A stretch of DNA of 64,000 nucleotides from Pseudomonas oryzae (GTDB lineage: Bacteria > Pseudomonadota > Gammaproteobacteria > Pseudomonadales > Pseudomonadaceae): positions 3,205,001-3,269,000 of the forward strand of contig NZ_LT629751.1 in assembly GCF_900104805.1 (NCBI RefSeq). Direction: 5' to 3'. Below the pieces are notes generated by a model. That model saw nothing but the letters and a program-made list of their open reading frames with translations, had not been told where the DNA came from and searched no databases. Positions 2,335 through 63,612 of the stretch are shown piece by piece. The position numbers were made by a program, and so were the translations under genes. Each line of letters begins with the position of its first letter. Position 1 is the first letter of the stretch.

Positions 2335-4159
<1,825 letters not shown>

Positions 4160-9161: not shown

Positions 9162-10742
9162 ATGAAGCTGCTCGCCCTGCGCCGCCTGATCCGCATCCAG
9201 CGGGTCGCCGTCCGCTACCGTCTGGACGACCTGCTGCTCGACCTGCCGCTGCCCTGGTGGCTGCGCGCCCTGCTGCGCGCCGCGCCCTGGCACTGGCTGC
9301 CGCGCGCACCGCTCGCCATGTCGCGCGGCGAGCGTCTGCGCCGTAGCCTGGAAGACCTCGGCCCGGTGTTCATCAAGTTCGGCCAGCTGCTGTCCACCCG
9401 CCGCGACCTGCTGCCCGCCGACATCGCCGACGAGCTGGCGCGCCTGCAGGACCGGGTGCCGCCCTTCCCGCCCGAACAGGCGGTGGCGCTGATCGAGCAG
9501 CAGCTCGGCGCACCGCTCGAGCAGGTGTTCAGCCGCTTCGAGCACCAGCCGCTGGCCTCGGCCTCTGTAGCCCAGGTGCACGCCGCCCAGCTCAGGAGCG
9601 GCGAGGACGTGGTGGTCAAGGTGGTGCGCCCGGGCCTCGAGCCGGTGATCCGCCAGGACATGGCCTGGCTGTTCCTCCTCGCCAAGGTGGCCGAGCGCGC
9701 CTCCGCCGACGCGCGCCGCCTGCGTCCGGTGGAGGTGGTCGGCGACTACGAGAAGACCATCTTCGACGAGCTCGACCTGCTGCGCGAAGCGGCCAACGGC
9801 AGCCAGCTGCGGCGCAACTTCGACGGCTCGCCGCTGCTCTACGTGCCGCAGGTGTACTGGGACTGGTGCCGGCCCAAGGTACTGGTCATGGAACGCATCT
9901 ACGGCATCCCGGTGACCGACCTGGCCGCCCTGCGCGACCAGCACACCGACATGAAGAAACTGGCCGAGCGCGGCGTGGAGATCTTCTTCACCCAGGTATT
10001 CCGCGACAGCTTCTTCCACGCCGACATGCACCCCGGAAACATCTTCGTCAGCACCCGCACGCCGCACGATCCGCAGTACATCGCCATCGACTGCGGGATC
10101 ATCGGCAGCCTCACCCCCGAGGACCAGGACTACCTGGCGCGCAACCTGCTGGCCTTCTTCAAGCGCGACTACCGCAAGGTGGCGCAGCTGCACATCGATT
10201 CCGGCTGGGTGCCGGCCGACACCCCGGTCAACGACTTCGAGGCGGCGATCCGCACCGTGTGCGAGCCGGTGTTCGAGAAGCCGCTCAAGGACATCTCCTT
10301 CGGCCAGGTGCTGCTGCGCCTGTTCCAGACCGCGCGGCGCTTCAACATGGAGGTGCAGCCGCAGCTGGTGCTGCTGCAGAAGACCCTGCTCAACATCGAG
10401 GGCCTCGGCCGCCAGCTGTACCCGGACCTCGACCTGTGGAGCACCGCCAAGCCGTTCCTCGAACGCTGGATGCGCCAGCGCATGAGCCCGCTGCAGCTGC
10501 TGCGCAACCTGCAGACCCAGGCCGAGCAGGTGCCGCAGCTGGCGAAGAAGACCCGCGCGGCGCTGGAGCGCCTCGGCCAGGGCGGGGCGACCGCCGCGCC
10601 GGCACGCAGCGCCTGGCTGGAGCGCCTGCTCGGCGCCGTGCTGCTGCTCGGCGCCGCCAGCCAGGGCCTGGCACCAAGCATGGCAACCTGGCCGACCTGG
10701 GCGATGCTCGCCGGCGGCCTGTACCTGGTCCTGCGCCGATAG
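9162..10742 (+). CDS. ubiB: Atypical kinase/ATPase UbiB for ubiquinone synthesis
   Basis: Member of the ABC1/ADCK/UbiB family, needed for coenzyme Q production. The protein (526 residues from ATG 9162) has the KxGQ-type motif [16 protein letters not shown] and the Ala-rich nucleotide loop [13 protein letters not shown]. The catalytic [10 protein letters not shown] and the metal-binding IDCG are also present. It ends with two hydrophobic C-terminal helices (about 485-524) that anchor it in the inner membrane. The start is 4 bases past the ubiJ stop; a start ten codons earlier inside ubiJ is less likely. Confidence 0.96.
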
Positions 10743-59457: not shown

Positions 59458-59532
59458 GCGCCGCCGCCCGCTTCCCTTAACCTCCGCGCCTCAGCCGTAG
59501 TCAGCCACTACAAGAATCGAGAGAGCGTGCCC

Positions 59533-61056
59533 ATGAAACCCGAAAGCCACATCCAGCAAGCCGGTCGCCCGTTCACCGGCGAGGAATTCCTCGCCAGCCT
59601 GCGCGACGGTCGCGAGGTCTACTACGCCGGCGAACGCGTCGCGGACGTCACCACCCATCCGGCGTTCCGCAACTCGGCGCAGACCGTGGCTTCCCTCTAC
59701 GACGCCCTGCACGTCCCGGAAACCAAGGACAAGCTGTGCTGGGCCACCGACACCGGCAACGGCGGCTACACCCACAAGTTCTTCCGCTACGCCCGCTCGC
59801 GCGAGGAGATGCTCGAGCAGCGCGACGCCATCGCCGAATGGGCGCGCATGAGCTACGGCTGGATGGGCCGCACCGCCGACTACAAGGCCGCCTTCGGCGA
59901 CACCCTGGGCGCCAACCCGGAGTTCTACGGCCGCTTCGAAGGCAACGCGCGGACCTGGTACAAGCGCATCCAGGAAAACTGCCTGTACCTCAACCACGCC
60001 ATCGTCAACCCGCCGATCGACCGCAACAAGCCGAGCGACACGGTCAAGGACGTCTATGTCCACGTCACCCGCGAGACCGCCGAGGGCATCTACGTCAACG
60101 GCGCCAAGGTGGTGGCCACCAACTCCGCGCTGACCCACTACAACTTCATCGGCCAGACCGCGGCCCAGGAAATCGGCGACGATCCGGACTTCGCCCTGCT
60201 GTTCATCACCCCGATGAACGCCAAGGGGGTCAGGCTGATCTCCCGCGTGTCCTACGAGAAGAACGCCACCGACAGCGCCTCGCCGTTCGACTACCCGCTG
60301 TCCTCGCGCTTCGACGAGAACGACGCGATCCTGATCCTCGAGAACGTGTTCATCCCCTGGGAAGACGTGCTGATCTACAAGGACAAGCAGAAGCTCATGC
60401 AGTGGGGCTTCGCCGCCGGCTTCGGTCGCCTCTACCCGCTGCAGGCCTGCACCCGCTTCGCGGTCAAGCTGGACTTCCTCGCCGGCCTGCTCGAGCAGGT
60501 ACTGGAATGCACCGGCGCCATCGACTTCCGCAGCGTGAGCGCCGACCTGGGTGAGGTGGTCGCCTGGCGCAACCTGTTCTGGTCGATCACCGAGCACATG
60601 TGCCTGGCCGCCGAGGAGTGGAAGAGCGGCGCCTACCTGCCGCCGGTGGAGTCGGCGTTCAACTACCGCACCTTCGCGCCGATGGCCTACGACAAGATCT
60701 TCCACATCGTGAAGACCACCGCGGCCAGCGGCCTGATCTACCTGCCGGGCAGCCACGTCGACCTGCAGAACCCGGAACTCGACGCCGCCCTGGCCCGCTA
60801 CTGCCGCGGCTCCGGCGACATCAAGCACACCGACCGGATCAAGATCATGAAGCTGATGTGGGACGCCATCGGCACCGAGTTCGGCGGCCGCCACCACCTG
60901 TACGAGCTGAACTACGCCGGCACCGCCGACGCCATCCGCATCCAGTGCCTGGGCGCCGCCCGCGCCAGCGGCCAGATGGCGAAGATGCGCGAACTGTCGC
61001 AGAAGTGCATGAGCGAGTACGACGTCGACGGCTGGAAGATTCCCGGGCTGAAGTAA
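59533..61056 (+). CDS. hpaB: 4-hydroxyphenylacetate 3-monooxygenase, oxygenase component
   Basis: FADH2-utilising hydroxylase that converts 4-hydroxyphenylacetate to 3,4-dihydroxyphenylacetate; relatives also act on tyrosine and other phenols. The protein is 507 residues. An N-terminal TGEEFLASLRDGREVYYAGE and an acyl-CoA-dehydrogenase-like core (NSALTHYNFIGQTAAQEIG) are present. The C-terminal half has GRHHLYELNYAGTADAIR. ATG 59533 is preferred, with GAGAG seven bases upstream; GTG 59527 is an alternative. Its reductase partner hpaC is convergent rather than in the same operon. Confidence 0.92.
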   Translation: MKPESHIQQAGRPFTGEEFLASLRDGREVYYAGERVADVTTHPAFRNSAQTVASLYDALHVPETKDKLCWATDTGNGGYTHKFFRYARSREEMLEQRDAIAEWARMSYGWMGRTADYKAAFGDTLGANPEFYGRFEGNARTWYKRIQENCLYLNHAIVNPPIDRNKPSDTVKDVYVHVTRETAEGIYVNGAKVVATNSALTHYNFIGQTAAQEIGDDPDFALLFITPMNAKGVRLISRVSYEKNATDSASPFDYPLSSRFDENDAILILENVFIPWEDVLIYKDKQKLMQWGFAAGFGRLYPLQACTRFAVKLDFLAGLLEQVLECTGAIDFRSVSADLGEVVAWRNLFWSITEHMCLAAEEWKSGAYLPPVESAFNYRTFAPMAYDKIFHIVKTTAASGLIYLPGSHVDLQNPELDAALARYCRGSGDIKHTDRIKIMKLMWDAIGTEFGGRHHLYELNYAGTADAIRIQCLGAARASGQMAKMRELSQKCMSEYDVDGWKIPGLK

Positions 61057-61307: not shown

Positions 61308-61817
61308 TCAGGCGGCGCGTTCGACGCGGCGGAACGCGCGGCTGAAGTACACCAGGCTGTCGCCTTCCGGACGCACGTGGATGTCGTCCAGCTCGACCAG
61401 CAGCACCGAGTGGGTGCCGATCTCCTGGGTCTCGACGATGCGCCCCTGCAGGTTGGCCAGCGCGCCGTCCAGCACCGGCAGGCCCTGGCTGCCGGTGGTC
61501 CACGGGTCGAGGGCGAAGCGCTCTTCCATGGCCACCCCGGTCATCCCGGCGAAATGCTTGGCGGCCTCTTCCTGGGCGCCGGACAGCACGTTGACGCACA
61601 GCCGGCCGTTGGCCTTGAACACCGCGTTCATCGCGCTGTTGCGGTTGACGCAGACCATCACGGTGGGCGGCGTGTCGGTCACCGAGCACACCGCGGTGGC
61701 GGTGATGCCGCAGCGGCCGGCCTCGCCGTCGCTGGTGACGATGTTCACCGCCGCGCTCATGTGCGCCATGGCATTGCGGAAGGCGAGTTGTTTCGGATCG
61801 AGCTGCTGCTGGGACAT
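61308..61817 (-). CDS. hpaC: 4-hydroxyphenylacetate 3-monooxygenase, flavin reductase component
   Basis: NADH:flavin reductase that supplies FADH2 to HpaB. The 169-residue protein starts MSQQQLDPKQLAFRNAMAHM. The flavin_reduct fold shows AVNIVTSDGEAGRCGITATAVCSVTDTPP, best located as residues about 22-50, with FKANGRLCVNVLS after it. AGGAG lies eight bases before ATG 61817. A -10-like TACGAT on this strand (61945-61950) with an upstream TG marks a probable promoter. Confidence 0.92.
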   Translation of the reverse strand: MSQQQLDPKQLAFRNAMAHMSAAVNIVTSDGEAGRCGITATAVCSVTDTPPTVMVCVNRNSAMNAVFKANGRLCVNVLSGAQEEAAKHFAGMTGVAMEERFALDPWTTGSQGLPVLDGALANLQGRIVETQEIGTHSVLLVELDDIHVRPEGDSLVYFSRAFRRVERAA

Positions 61818-62214
61818 GAGCGGTACTCCTGACGCAAGGGGTGAAGGCACGGAACCTGGTCCCGTGGCCAGCGGCATCACTGCGGATGCTGTCGCCTGCA
61901 TGGCTGCCGCGCAGGCGGCGCATGCCGATGGACGAATCATGAACATCGTAACAAATTTGCAGAATGCCTTTTCCGCACTTTGCCTTGCACTTTTCACGAA
62001 ACGCAACCGTCCATCGCCAGTGGCCGGCGTCTACCCCCTCGCACCGGCAGGCCATCTGCCCCGCAGCCTGCCCGGCAGCTTCTGCCAACCACCGATGAGT
62101 CCCATGCTAGGGGCTGGATTTTTCCCGGACTTGCCTGCCTGCGACCTGCACTTGCCGTTCCCGGCAACGGCGGGGCTTGCCTTGTCCCACCGGCATCGTG
62201 CTAGAGTGAAAAAC
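61818..62214. other. 397-base gap between hpaC and the tyrS leader
   Basis: The hpaC-proximal half holds the hpaC leader and its probable -10 (61945-61950). The AT-rich stretch 61940-61995 is the likely promoter core. From about 62020 to 62160 nothing is recognised. The tyrS promoter lies at 62177-62207. Confidence 0.55.
62177..62207 (+). promoter_or_regulatory. Probable tyrS promoter
   Basis: An extended -10, TGC-TAGAGT (62199-62207), with TTGCCT (62177-62182) 19 bases upstream of TAGAGT. The predicted start is near 62214, right at the leader-peptide ATG, so the leader may be translated without a Shine-Dalgarno sequence. Confidence 0.5.
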
Positions 62215-62280
62215 ATGAACCTGTTAATCAATTCCCGCGCCCGCTATTACGCCTATTACCGCACCTCACCGAGGCGGTAG
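62215..62280 (+). CDS. Tyrosine-rich leader peptide upstream of tyrS
   Basis: A 21-codon open frame with the core RARYYAYYRTSPRR and stop at 62278-62280. Four Tyr codons fall within five positions (codons 11, 12, 14, 15), followed by a terminator and then tyrS. This is the layout of ribosome-mediated attenuation leaders such as trpL and pheL. TACCGC (62257-62262, including the last Tyr codon) pairs with GCGGTA (62274-62279). AGGCGG (62272-62277) can instead pair with CCGCCT (62300-62305), which would disrupt the terminator. No ribosome site is seen; translation may be leaderless. Confidence 0.75.
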   Translation: MNLLINSRARYYAYYRTSPRR

Positions 62281-62292
62281 GCGCGTGCGCGC

Positions 62293-62325
62293 ATCCGATC
62301 CGCCTGAGGCGGACCGGATCGTTTT
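62293..62325 (+). terminator. Attenuator terminator ahead of tyrS
   Basis: ATCCGATCCGCC (62293-62304) pairs with GGCGGACCGGAT (62308-62319), 11 of 12 positions, around a TGA loop. It is followed by CG and TTTT (62322-62325). It lies 49 bases before the tyrS ATG and would abort transcription unless the alternative pairing 62272-62277 with 62300-62305 forms. Confidence 0.82.
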
Positions 62326-62373
62326 CTCCACAGTCTCCTCAGGCGTTTCGCCATTCCCCCCAAGGAGACTGCA

Positions 62374-63612
62374 ATGCCCACGATCGACACCGACCTGCTC
62401 GCCCTGCTCGAAGAGCGCGGCTTCGTCCACCAGAGCACCGACGCCGACGGCCTGCGCGCCGCCCTCGCCCGTGGCCCGCTGACCGCCTACCTGGGCTTCG
62501 ACGCCACCGCCGACAGCCTGCACGTCGGCCACCTGCAGGGCCTGATGCTGATGCGCTGGCTGCAGCACGCCGGGCACAAGCCGCTGCTCTTGATCGGCGG
62601 CGCCACCACGCGCATCGGCGACCCGAGCTTCCGCGACAGCAGCCGGCCCATGCTCGACGAGGCGACCATCGCCGCCAACATGCGCGGCATCGGCAGCGCC
62701 TTCCGCCGCTACCTGCGTCTGGGCGACGGCGCCGGCGACGCCCAGGTGGTGAACAACGCCGACTGGCTGGACGGCCTCGGCTACCTGGAATTCCTCAACC
62801 GCGTCGGCCGCCACTTCAGCGTCAACCGCCTGCTGACCTTCGACGCGGTGCGCAGCCGCCTGGAGCACTCGCTGTCGTTCCAGGAGTTCGGCTACACCCT
62901 GCTGCAGGCCTTCGACTTCACCGAGCTGGCGCGCCGCCACGGCTGCACCCTGCAGATCGGCGGCGCCGACCAGTGGGCCAACATCATCAACGGCGTCGAG
63001 CTGTCGCGCCGCCAGGACGGCCAGCAGCTGTACGGCCTGACCATGCCGCTGTTGACCACCAGCGACGGCCGCAAGATGGGCAAGTCGGCGCAGGGCGCGG
63101 TGTGGCTGAACGCCGAACGCCTGGCGCCGTTCGACTTCTGGCAGTTCTGGCGCAACTGCGACGACCGCGACGTCGGCCGCTTCCTCGCCCTGTTCAGCGA
63201 ACTGCCGATGGCCGAGGTGCGCCGCCTCGGCGCGCTGCAGGGCGCCGAGCTCAACGAGGCGAAGATCGTCCTGGCCAACGAGGCCACCCGCCTGGCCCAC
63301 GGCGCGGCAGCCGCCGAGGCGGCGGCCAACGCAGCGCGCGGGGTGTTCGACGGCGCCAGCGCCGCCGAGGGCCTGCCGACCCTGCCGATCACGCCCGCGC
63401 GCCTGGCCGCCGGGGTGAGCCTGGCCGAGCTGGCGGTGGAGGCCGGCCTGGCCGCCTCGCGTAGCGCCGCCCGGCGCCTGGCCGCCGGCGGCGGCCTGCG
63501 CCTGGACGGCGTGGCGGTGAGCGACGCCGACCAGCCGCTGGTCGGCGACGGCAGCGAGTGGCGCCTGTCGGCCGGGCGCAAGCAGCACGTGCGCATCGCC
63601 GTGGGCGAGTGA
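62374..63612 (+). CDS. tyrS: Tyrosyl-tRNA synthetase
   Basis: Class I synthetase of 412 residues charging tRNA-Tyr. HVGH at residues 50-53 ([19 protein letters not shown]), the tyrosine-pocket segment [17 protein letters not shown], and KMGKS near 234-238 are clear. A C-terminal S4 RNA-binding domain ends the protein. AAGGAGA precedes the ATG. Some Pseudomonas carry two TyrRS genes, and this may be one of a pair. The upstream leader suggests control by charged tRNA-Tyr. It adjoins the hpaBC genes of tyrosine-derived aromatic breakdown. Confidence 0.95.

Follow-up and report, generated by a model that had tools for sequence, protein, structure and literature searches.

The window analysed here, a 64,000 nt stretch of Pseudomonas oryzae DNA (GCF_900104805.1, NZ_LT629751.1, positions 3,205,001-3,269,000 of the forward strand), contains an accessory tyrosyl-tRNA synthetase gene, tyrS, preceded by a short open reading frame that carries Tyr codons and by a series of potential RNA hairpins (Table 1). 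No Shine-Dalgarno (SD) sequence is evident before the ATG of the leader ORF. An earlier note on this DNA had read the region as a Tyr-codon leader controlling tyrS, and the leader ORF, the pairing strands, the hairpin at 62293, its TTTT and tyrS all lie where the note had put them, exact to the base. The Tyr-codon leader itself is upheld by both the window sequence and its relatives. Adjoining tyrS are genes for HpaB and HpaC, a 4-hydroxyphenylacetate 3-monooxygenase and reductase, the HpaB score being slightly below its equivalog cut-off. The sole tRNA gene called in the window encodes an unusually long tRNA-Ala (GGC).

Table 1. Positions of the tyrS leader elements and of other genes mentioned in the text, counted from the first base of the window.
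Feature	Position	Strand	Detail
tRNA-Ala (GGC)	9620-9717	-	98 bases
HpaB	59527-61056	+	
HpaC	61308-62006	-	
Promoter-like pair	62177-62207	+	TTGCCT 62177-62182, 19-nt spacer, extended -10 TGCTAGAGT 62199-62207
Leader peptide ORF	62215-62280	+	encodes MNLLINSRARYYAYYRTSPRR, then stop
Leader ORF Tyr codons	62245-62250 and 62254-62259	+	
P1 (protector stem)	62257-62279	+	strand 1 TACCGC 62257-62262 with strand 2 GCGGTA 62274-62279
Helix 2:3	62272-62305	+	AGGCGG 62272-62277 with CCGCCT 62300-62305
P3 (terminator hairpin of the earlier note)	62293-62319	+	11 pairs, one A.C mismatch
Helix 4:5	62301-62345	+	CGCCTGAGG 62301-62309 with CCTCAGGCG 62337-62345, nine perfect pairs
Weak U-tract of P3	62322-62325	+	TTTT
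P4	62331-62371	+	CAGTCTCCT 62331-62339 with AGGAGACTG 62363-62371
tyrS Shine-Dalgarno	62362-62367	+	AAGGAG, sequestered by P4
tyrS, accessory tyrosyl-tRNA synthetase	62374-63612	+	412 aa; NCBIfam TIGR00234, E = 1.1e-96

Among 248 genomes of the family, 28 TyrS orthologues were recovered at E ≤ 1e-120, and a Tyr-rich leader ORF occupies the equivalent place in 27 of them, L037 being without one; conservation of the Tyr codons in relatives was a check that the earlier note had proposed. When the genome collection was searched with alignment A1 and the best 80 of at least 412 relatives were taken, the leader was located at 54 of these 80 named loci, one locus (L055) having 4 bases upstream and not being judgeable. 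Over the 28 family loci and the best 80 of at least 412 relatives, the leader is present in 81 of 108 (63 of 90 once 18 duplicated loci are merged) and spans three classes, the alpha-, beta- and gammaproteobacteria. Gamma/beta carriers are Pseudomonas, Massilia and its relatives, Thauera, Pseudothauera, Methyloversatilis and Caldimonas, and alpha carriers are Azospirillum, Microvirga, Chelatococcus, Telmatospirillum, Thalassospira and one MAG. Within the 80 named loci the leader was not found in Rhodobacterales, P. viridiflava, P. ovata and P. marincola, among others. Folding was performed on 61 unique leaders (46 gamma/beta and 15 alpha; L105 removed, L078 and L102 added by hand), and the two Thalassospira leaders (L092 and L099), added to the leader counts later, lie outside this set. 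Tyr makes up 14.4% of residues in these 61 leaders, with one Tyr codon in 5, two in 21, three in 20 and four in 15. In a TyrS tree with 77 labelled rows, 53 of them carrying a leader, the leader label requires 4 changes compared with 20.7 when shuffled, bearing in mind that relatedness alone clusters labels; L043, L055 and L116 were omitted on purpose and L071, with a tyrS stop at codon 246, was dropped. This last record, from P. anguilliseptica, has an intact leader before the interrupted tyrS (2501-3721), and the in-frame stop may be a sequencing error or decay.

The leader is predicted to fold into three consecutive hairpins: P1, which incorporates the last Tyr codons and the leader end, then P3, then P4. 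Folding of the 132-nt leader is stronger than expected by chance (z = -2.94; 2 of 200 shuffles equally good). Strand 1 of P1 consists of the last Tyr codon plus CGC. P4 and helix 4:5 are both absent from the list of elements in the earlier note. Helix 4:5 pairs the P3 loop and 3' arm with the anti-SD strand of P4, and its formation therefore precludes P3 and P4 together. Judged from sequence and covariation, the leader appears to possess what a translation attenuator needs, namely a stem that sequesters the downstream SD (P4) and an alternative helix that excludes it (4:5). By eye, a P4-like region is also kept before tyrS in a P. aeruginosa plasmid record (L038, 2880-2990), in which the leader ORF has been replaced.

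Covariation supports most of these helices. In the gamma/beta alignment A2 (46 leaders, 45 distinct), P1, P3 and P4 together have 59 doubly changed cells compared with 23.5 ± 5.3 after shuffling, and 4:5 has 27 compared with 5.9 ± 2.8, slid controls giving 0-5; P1 alone has zero doubly changed pairs in A2, and its register differs among clades. A register-free strand-swap test compared each locus's own strands with swapped ones over 5,000 permutations (lowest possible p = 2e-4), the duplex-test column windows being placed by eye on A2 and on the alpha alignment A3 after viewing the data. In gamma/beta leaders, P1, P3, P4 and 4:5 each gave p = 2e-4, and 4:5 alone gave p = 5e-5 with 20,000 permutations, values that overstate independence because the sequences are related and kinship is uncorrected; four negative-control strand pairs gave p = 0.10-0.96. 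The 15 alpha leaders of A3 gave 6e-4 for P3, 0.0012 for 4:5 and 0.036 for P1, and P4 reached 4e-4 once its window was re-anchored on GTCTCC, a first, badly placed window having given 0.91. In Massilia L045 both sides of P4 have changed, pairing GGTTCC with GGAACC. Helix 2:3 is near-invariant, with 95.5% of cells paired in the 45 distinct sequences, and strands 2 and 4 share sequence; no covariation signal was detected for 2:3 in the 45 distinct gamma/beta leaders (strand-swap p = 0.92; alpha 0.39), a result that weighs against the relay model set out below. Of the three stems described in the earlier note, the protector stem and the 62293 hairpin are thus real and conserved, as is the capacity for exclusive 2:3 pairing, and the compensating changes that the note called for are seen in P1 (by the strand-swap test only) and P3 and lacking in 2:3.

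These elements, together with the evidence on termination considered below, suggest a molecular model in which the leader is probably a translation attenuator worked by the ribosome through three relay hairpins before tyrS. Transcription would begin at or near the leader AUG, and the leader peptide would be translated without an SD. When charged Tyr-tRNA is ample, the ribosome would reach the stop codon and cover strand 2, allowing P3 and P4 to form and hiding the tyrS SD, and in the absence of translation P1, P3 and P4 would all form, both being OFF states. When charged Tyr-tRNA is short, the ribosome would stall on the Tyr codons and cover strand 1, leaving strand 2 free to pair with strand 3 as helix 2:3 and so to open P3. 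The opened P3 loop and 3' arm would then pair with the anti-SD strand as helix 4:5, P4 would open, and the released SD would permit translation of tyrS (ON). We infer the stalling, the 2:3 step, the order of events and the tyrosine response, tyrosine sensing being drawn from the codons themselves. The presence of a single Tyr codon in 5 of the 61 leaders speaks against such a relay. A remnant in genome G063 (L134, 500-1013) speaks for it: tyrS is cut after about 33 codons, with an unrelated fragment behind it, the leader hairpins remain, and the leader, now MRIFLCPISAYTTT and a stop, has its Tyr run frameshifted and lost alongside the broken tyrS.

Equilibrium folding with 30 nt blocked around each codon, as a model of the ribosome, weakly suggests that ribosome position shifts the fold in the expected direction, though not in size. 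In 39 of 46 gamma/beta loci, a ribosome at the first Tyr codon gives a lower ON minus OFF balance than one at the stop (median -1.27 kcal/mol), which favours the relay. Other outcomes count against it. Of 46 gamma/beta leaders, 45 favour OFF wherever the ribosome is placed, L015 alone falling below zero; the ON-OFF shift is due largely to the ribosome being at the stop, with a mean difference of about 0.5 kcal/mol between Tyr codons and earlier ones; and the mean shift at the last Tyr codon is zero. Across the 61 leaders, the median SD opening energy is 8.4 kcal/mol without a ribosome and 8.5 kcal/mol at the stop; at the best Tyr codon, taken as the lowest value among one to four, it is 7.7 kcal/mol. 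Compared with ribosome-free RNA, stalling at the best Tyr codon brings a drop of over 1 kcal/mol in only 18 of 61 leaders, and in only 20 of 61 does the SD open most easily with the ribosome at a Tyr codon. As proof of a switch such folding was rejected, the effect being small and mixed. When the RNA ends before the SD, 4:5 beats P3 without a ribosome in 30 of 46, though not in the oryzihabitans group, and control must therefore be partly kinetic, depending on co-transcriptional timing.

The proposed start of transcription is consistent with the sequence immediately upstream. Of the 61 unique leaders, 45 are preceded by a promoter-like pair scoring at least 7 of 12, each with a -10 element that ends 6-8 nt upstream of the leader ATG. 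This spacing puts the start at or beside the AUG and predicts, except in Azospirillum, a leader ORF that is leaderless. The window is not among these high scorers, having a weak -35 and a pair score of 5 of 12, and its -10 element ends 7 nt before the ATG, which would place the transcript start at about 62213-62216, at the leader AUG. Nine of the 16 lower-scoring leaders, seven of them from the window's genus, likewise have the -10 at 6-8 nt and one has it at 9, while in six Azospirillum leaders the best pair is poor and lies at 28 nt. The leader ORF is thus probably leaderless.

The earlier note had proposed classical transcription attenuation, with P3 as an intrinsic terminator ending transcripts near 62325 and 2:3 as the antiterminator, a reading we consider unlikely although it explains part of the data. 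A U-tract, taken as at least five T in 8 nt at the P3 3' end with the count beginning two columns inside P3, was found in 7 of 46 gamma/beta leaders: the window (L009), five congeners and L077. Within the window's genus, six of eight leaders have five or six T (the window five), which suits termination, as do the two Thalassospira tyrS leaders (L092 and L099, each at 2240-2430), where by eye MENVFAQFNSYYPLHT and a stop are followed by a clear intrinsic terminator with a T-run, and six of ten related P9 leaders (see below) with a run of four or more T after P3. The U-tract is nevertheless missing from 39 of 46 gamma/beta leaders, congeners L015 and L016 (two T each) among them, P3 is absent from the output of a simple terminator scan, and termination leaves the covarying P4 and 4:5 unexplained. 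Termination at 62325 as the main mechanism is accordingly not borne out, P4 and 4:5 pointing instead to SD sequestration. P3 is probably not the main effector as a terminator; most likely the sensor is conserved and the output varies, with SD sequestration as the common form and control exerted on translation. We also infer that termination at P3 may add to this control in the window's genus.

Nascent-peptide arrest would retain the same downstream hairpins and differ in the sensor, a leader end resembling [YF][YF]-x-P stalling the ribosome on a small molecule such as tyrosine or a TyrRS inhibitor. Alpha leaders do retain an aromatic pair plus Pro (NYFTPSP, YYAPSP, MYYPPLT), and the leaders with a single Tyr codon noted above sit easily with arrest. 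By eye, however, the peptide before the aromatic pair differs among clades, and a Tyr codon number that ranges from one to four suits codon sensing; we hold arrest to be improbable. The least probable account, to which we give very little credence, is a riboswitch, T-box or protein-binding element in which the ORF is incidental. The strength and conservation of the structure would accord with it, but no Rfam family scored over its cut-off in either 4 kb of the window or ten related loci, and the T-box covariance model likewise had no match in them (E up to 1 in the 4 kb, gathering score in the ten loci). A Tyr-bearing frame at the same place in the 81 loci counted above, out of 108 that include the best 80 of at least 412 relatives, also disfavours an incidental ORF, as does the frameshifted Tyr run of the G063 remnant, the sole remnant seen.

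Amino-acid leader-peptide attenuators govern trp, his, phe and pheST in gammaproteobacteria. The tyrS leader shares with them the codons of the regulated amino acid, exclusive helices and a target gene concerned with that same amino acid, and would differ in acting mainly through SD sequestration rather than an intrinsic terminator, in its use of Tyr, in the extra relay helix 4:5 and in a leader ORF that is probably leaderless. Translation attenuators are represented by the erm and cat leaders and by the leaderless poly-Cys uORFs of mycobacteria. As in these, the position of a ribosome on the leader ORF would decide downstream translation, and the mycobacterial uORFs provide a parallel for the probable leaderless start; the Tyr codons, aminoacyl-tRNA synthetase target, proteobacterial hosts and three-hairpin relay set the tyrS leader apart. 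In Firmicutes, Tyr T-boxes before tyrS bind tRNA directly. The gene and the kind of signal (uncharged Tyr-tRNA) would be the same for the proteobacterial leader, and direct tRNA binding belongs to the T-box only. Tyrosine genes under T-box control are treated in PMC1262725. If correct, our model describes a widespread Tyr-codon attenuator of an aminoacyl-tRNA synthetase outside Firmicutes that acts mainly on translation. Among the literature matches listed, none mentions a Tyr-codon leader before tyrS in its title or in the opening of its abstract. A comparative study by Lopatovskaya et al. 2010 (doi 10.1134/S0026893310010164), reportedly on attenuation of aminoacyl-tRNA operons, may describe the tyrS leader element; two of PMC4833913, PMC1262725, PMC3349714 and PMC10272879 cite it. 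The leader is of a known kind, leader-peptide attenuation, in a form that may be new, priority being unsure.

A model built from the gamma/beta leaders (R1) connects the tyrS leader with the Rfam family RF00624, 'sRNA P9', which is said to originate from Livny et al. 2006. At E ≤ 0.001, R1 matches 43 of 248 family genomes, with 28 strong sites (E < 1e-21), strong on the leaders used to build it by construction, and 23 weaker ones. Of the strong sites, 27 lie before tyrS and one at the G063 remnant; the window genome has a single R1 site at this threshold, before tyrS. The weaker sites coincide with Rfam P9 sites in 21 of 23 cases (E 1e-7 to 7e-5), the matches in G102 and G193 being judged chance on reading the sequence. 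A class search with R1 matched 2 of 369 genomes, G000 and G486 (6e-4), and the G486 match lies inside an open reading frame on translation and was judged chance. RF00624 itself matches 98 of 248 family genomes, 97 over its cut-off, and the window scores 21 bits, under the 43-bit cut-off. We had regarded this window match as chance, since P9 sits elsewhere in relatives, a view dropped once R1 recovered the 21 P9 sites.

The P9 loci examined (L119-L128, about 1470-1620 on the P9 strand) have a layout similar to that of the tyrS leader in promoter spacing, hairpins and strand 1. All ten have a leader ORF with ITAI near its end and a TTGAC-type promoter 6-9 nt upstream of the leader ATG, and eight (not L119 or L126) are predicted to fold with a P3-like GC hairpin and an SD-sequestering stem. 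They differ from the tyrS leader in their Ile/Thr codons, in reading frame, in the T-runs of six of ten and in gene context, nine of ten lying directly before a threonine ammonia-lyase (ilvA) ORF by eye (the three that were run all matched the family) and L121 before another small ORF. Rfam 'sRNA P9' looks like a leader-peptide attenuator of ilvA, which would make a supposed sRNA the leader of that gene. The strand-1 strings, ATTATTACCGCC in P9 and TATTACCGCT (L020) and TATTATTACTACC (L022) in Tyr leaders, are nearly alike and differ in frame, the near-shared string beginning TATTACCGC being read as TAT TAC CGC (Tyr) in the tyrS family and as ATT ACC GCC (Ile-Thr-Ala) in the P9/ilvA family. 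Shared descent with a frame change and convergence on the same pairing needs are both possible sources of this likeness. We put forward only tentatively that one RNA chassis of leaderless ORF, P1, relay hairpin and SD sequestrator underlies the two families and that a one-base frame shift re-specified its sensor; that its output stage switches between SD sequestration and termination is an equally speculative part of this proposal.

The leader-bearing tyrS is nearly always a second TyrRS gene. In the window genome the other TyrRS is divergent, with 34% identity. As searched over 50 of the 80 named loci (L098 left out), two TyrRS genes are present in 32 of 33 leader genomes and in 5 of 16 taken as leaderless. 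With Thalassospira re-sorted, a change made after its leaders were found and which moved two of the five two-TyrRS "leaderless" genomes, the figures become 34 of 35 with a leader and 3 of 14 without (Fisher p = 1.4e-7, kinship uncorrected). If the proposed translation attenuator operates as described, it would explain how an accessory TyrRS remains unexpressed for as long as the main enzyme can charge its tRNA; charging may fail on starvation or with a TyrRS inhibitor. Among leader carriers of the family, 24 of 26 genomes have two TyrRS genes. The single TyrRS found in G119 and in G125 is the leader-controlled one, the other being either truly lost or masked in the sequence.
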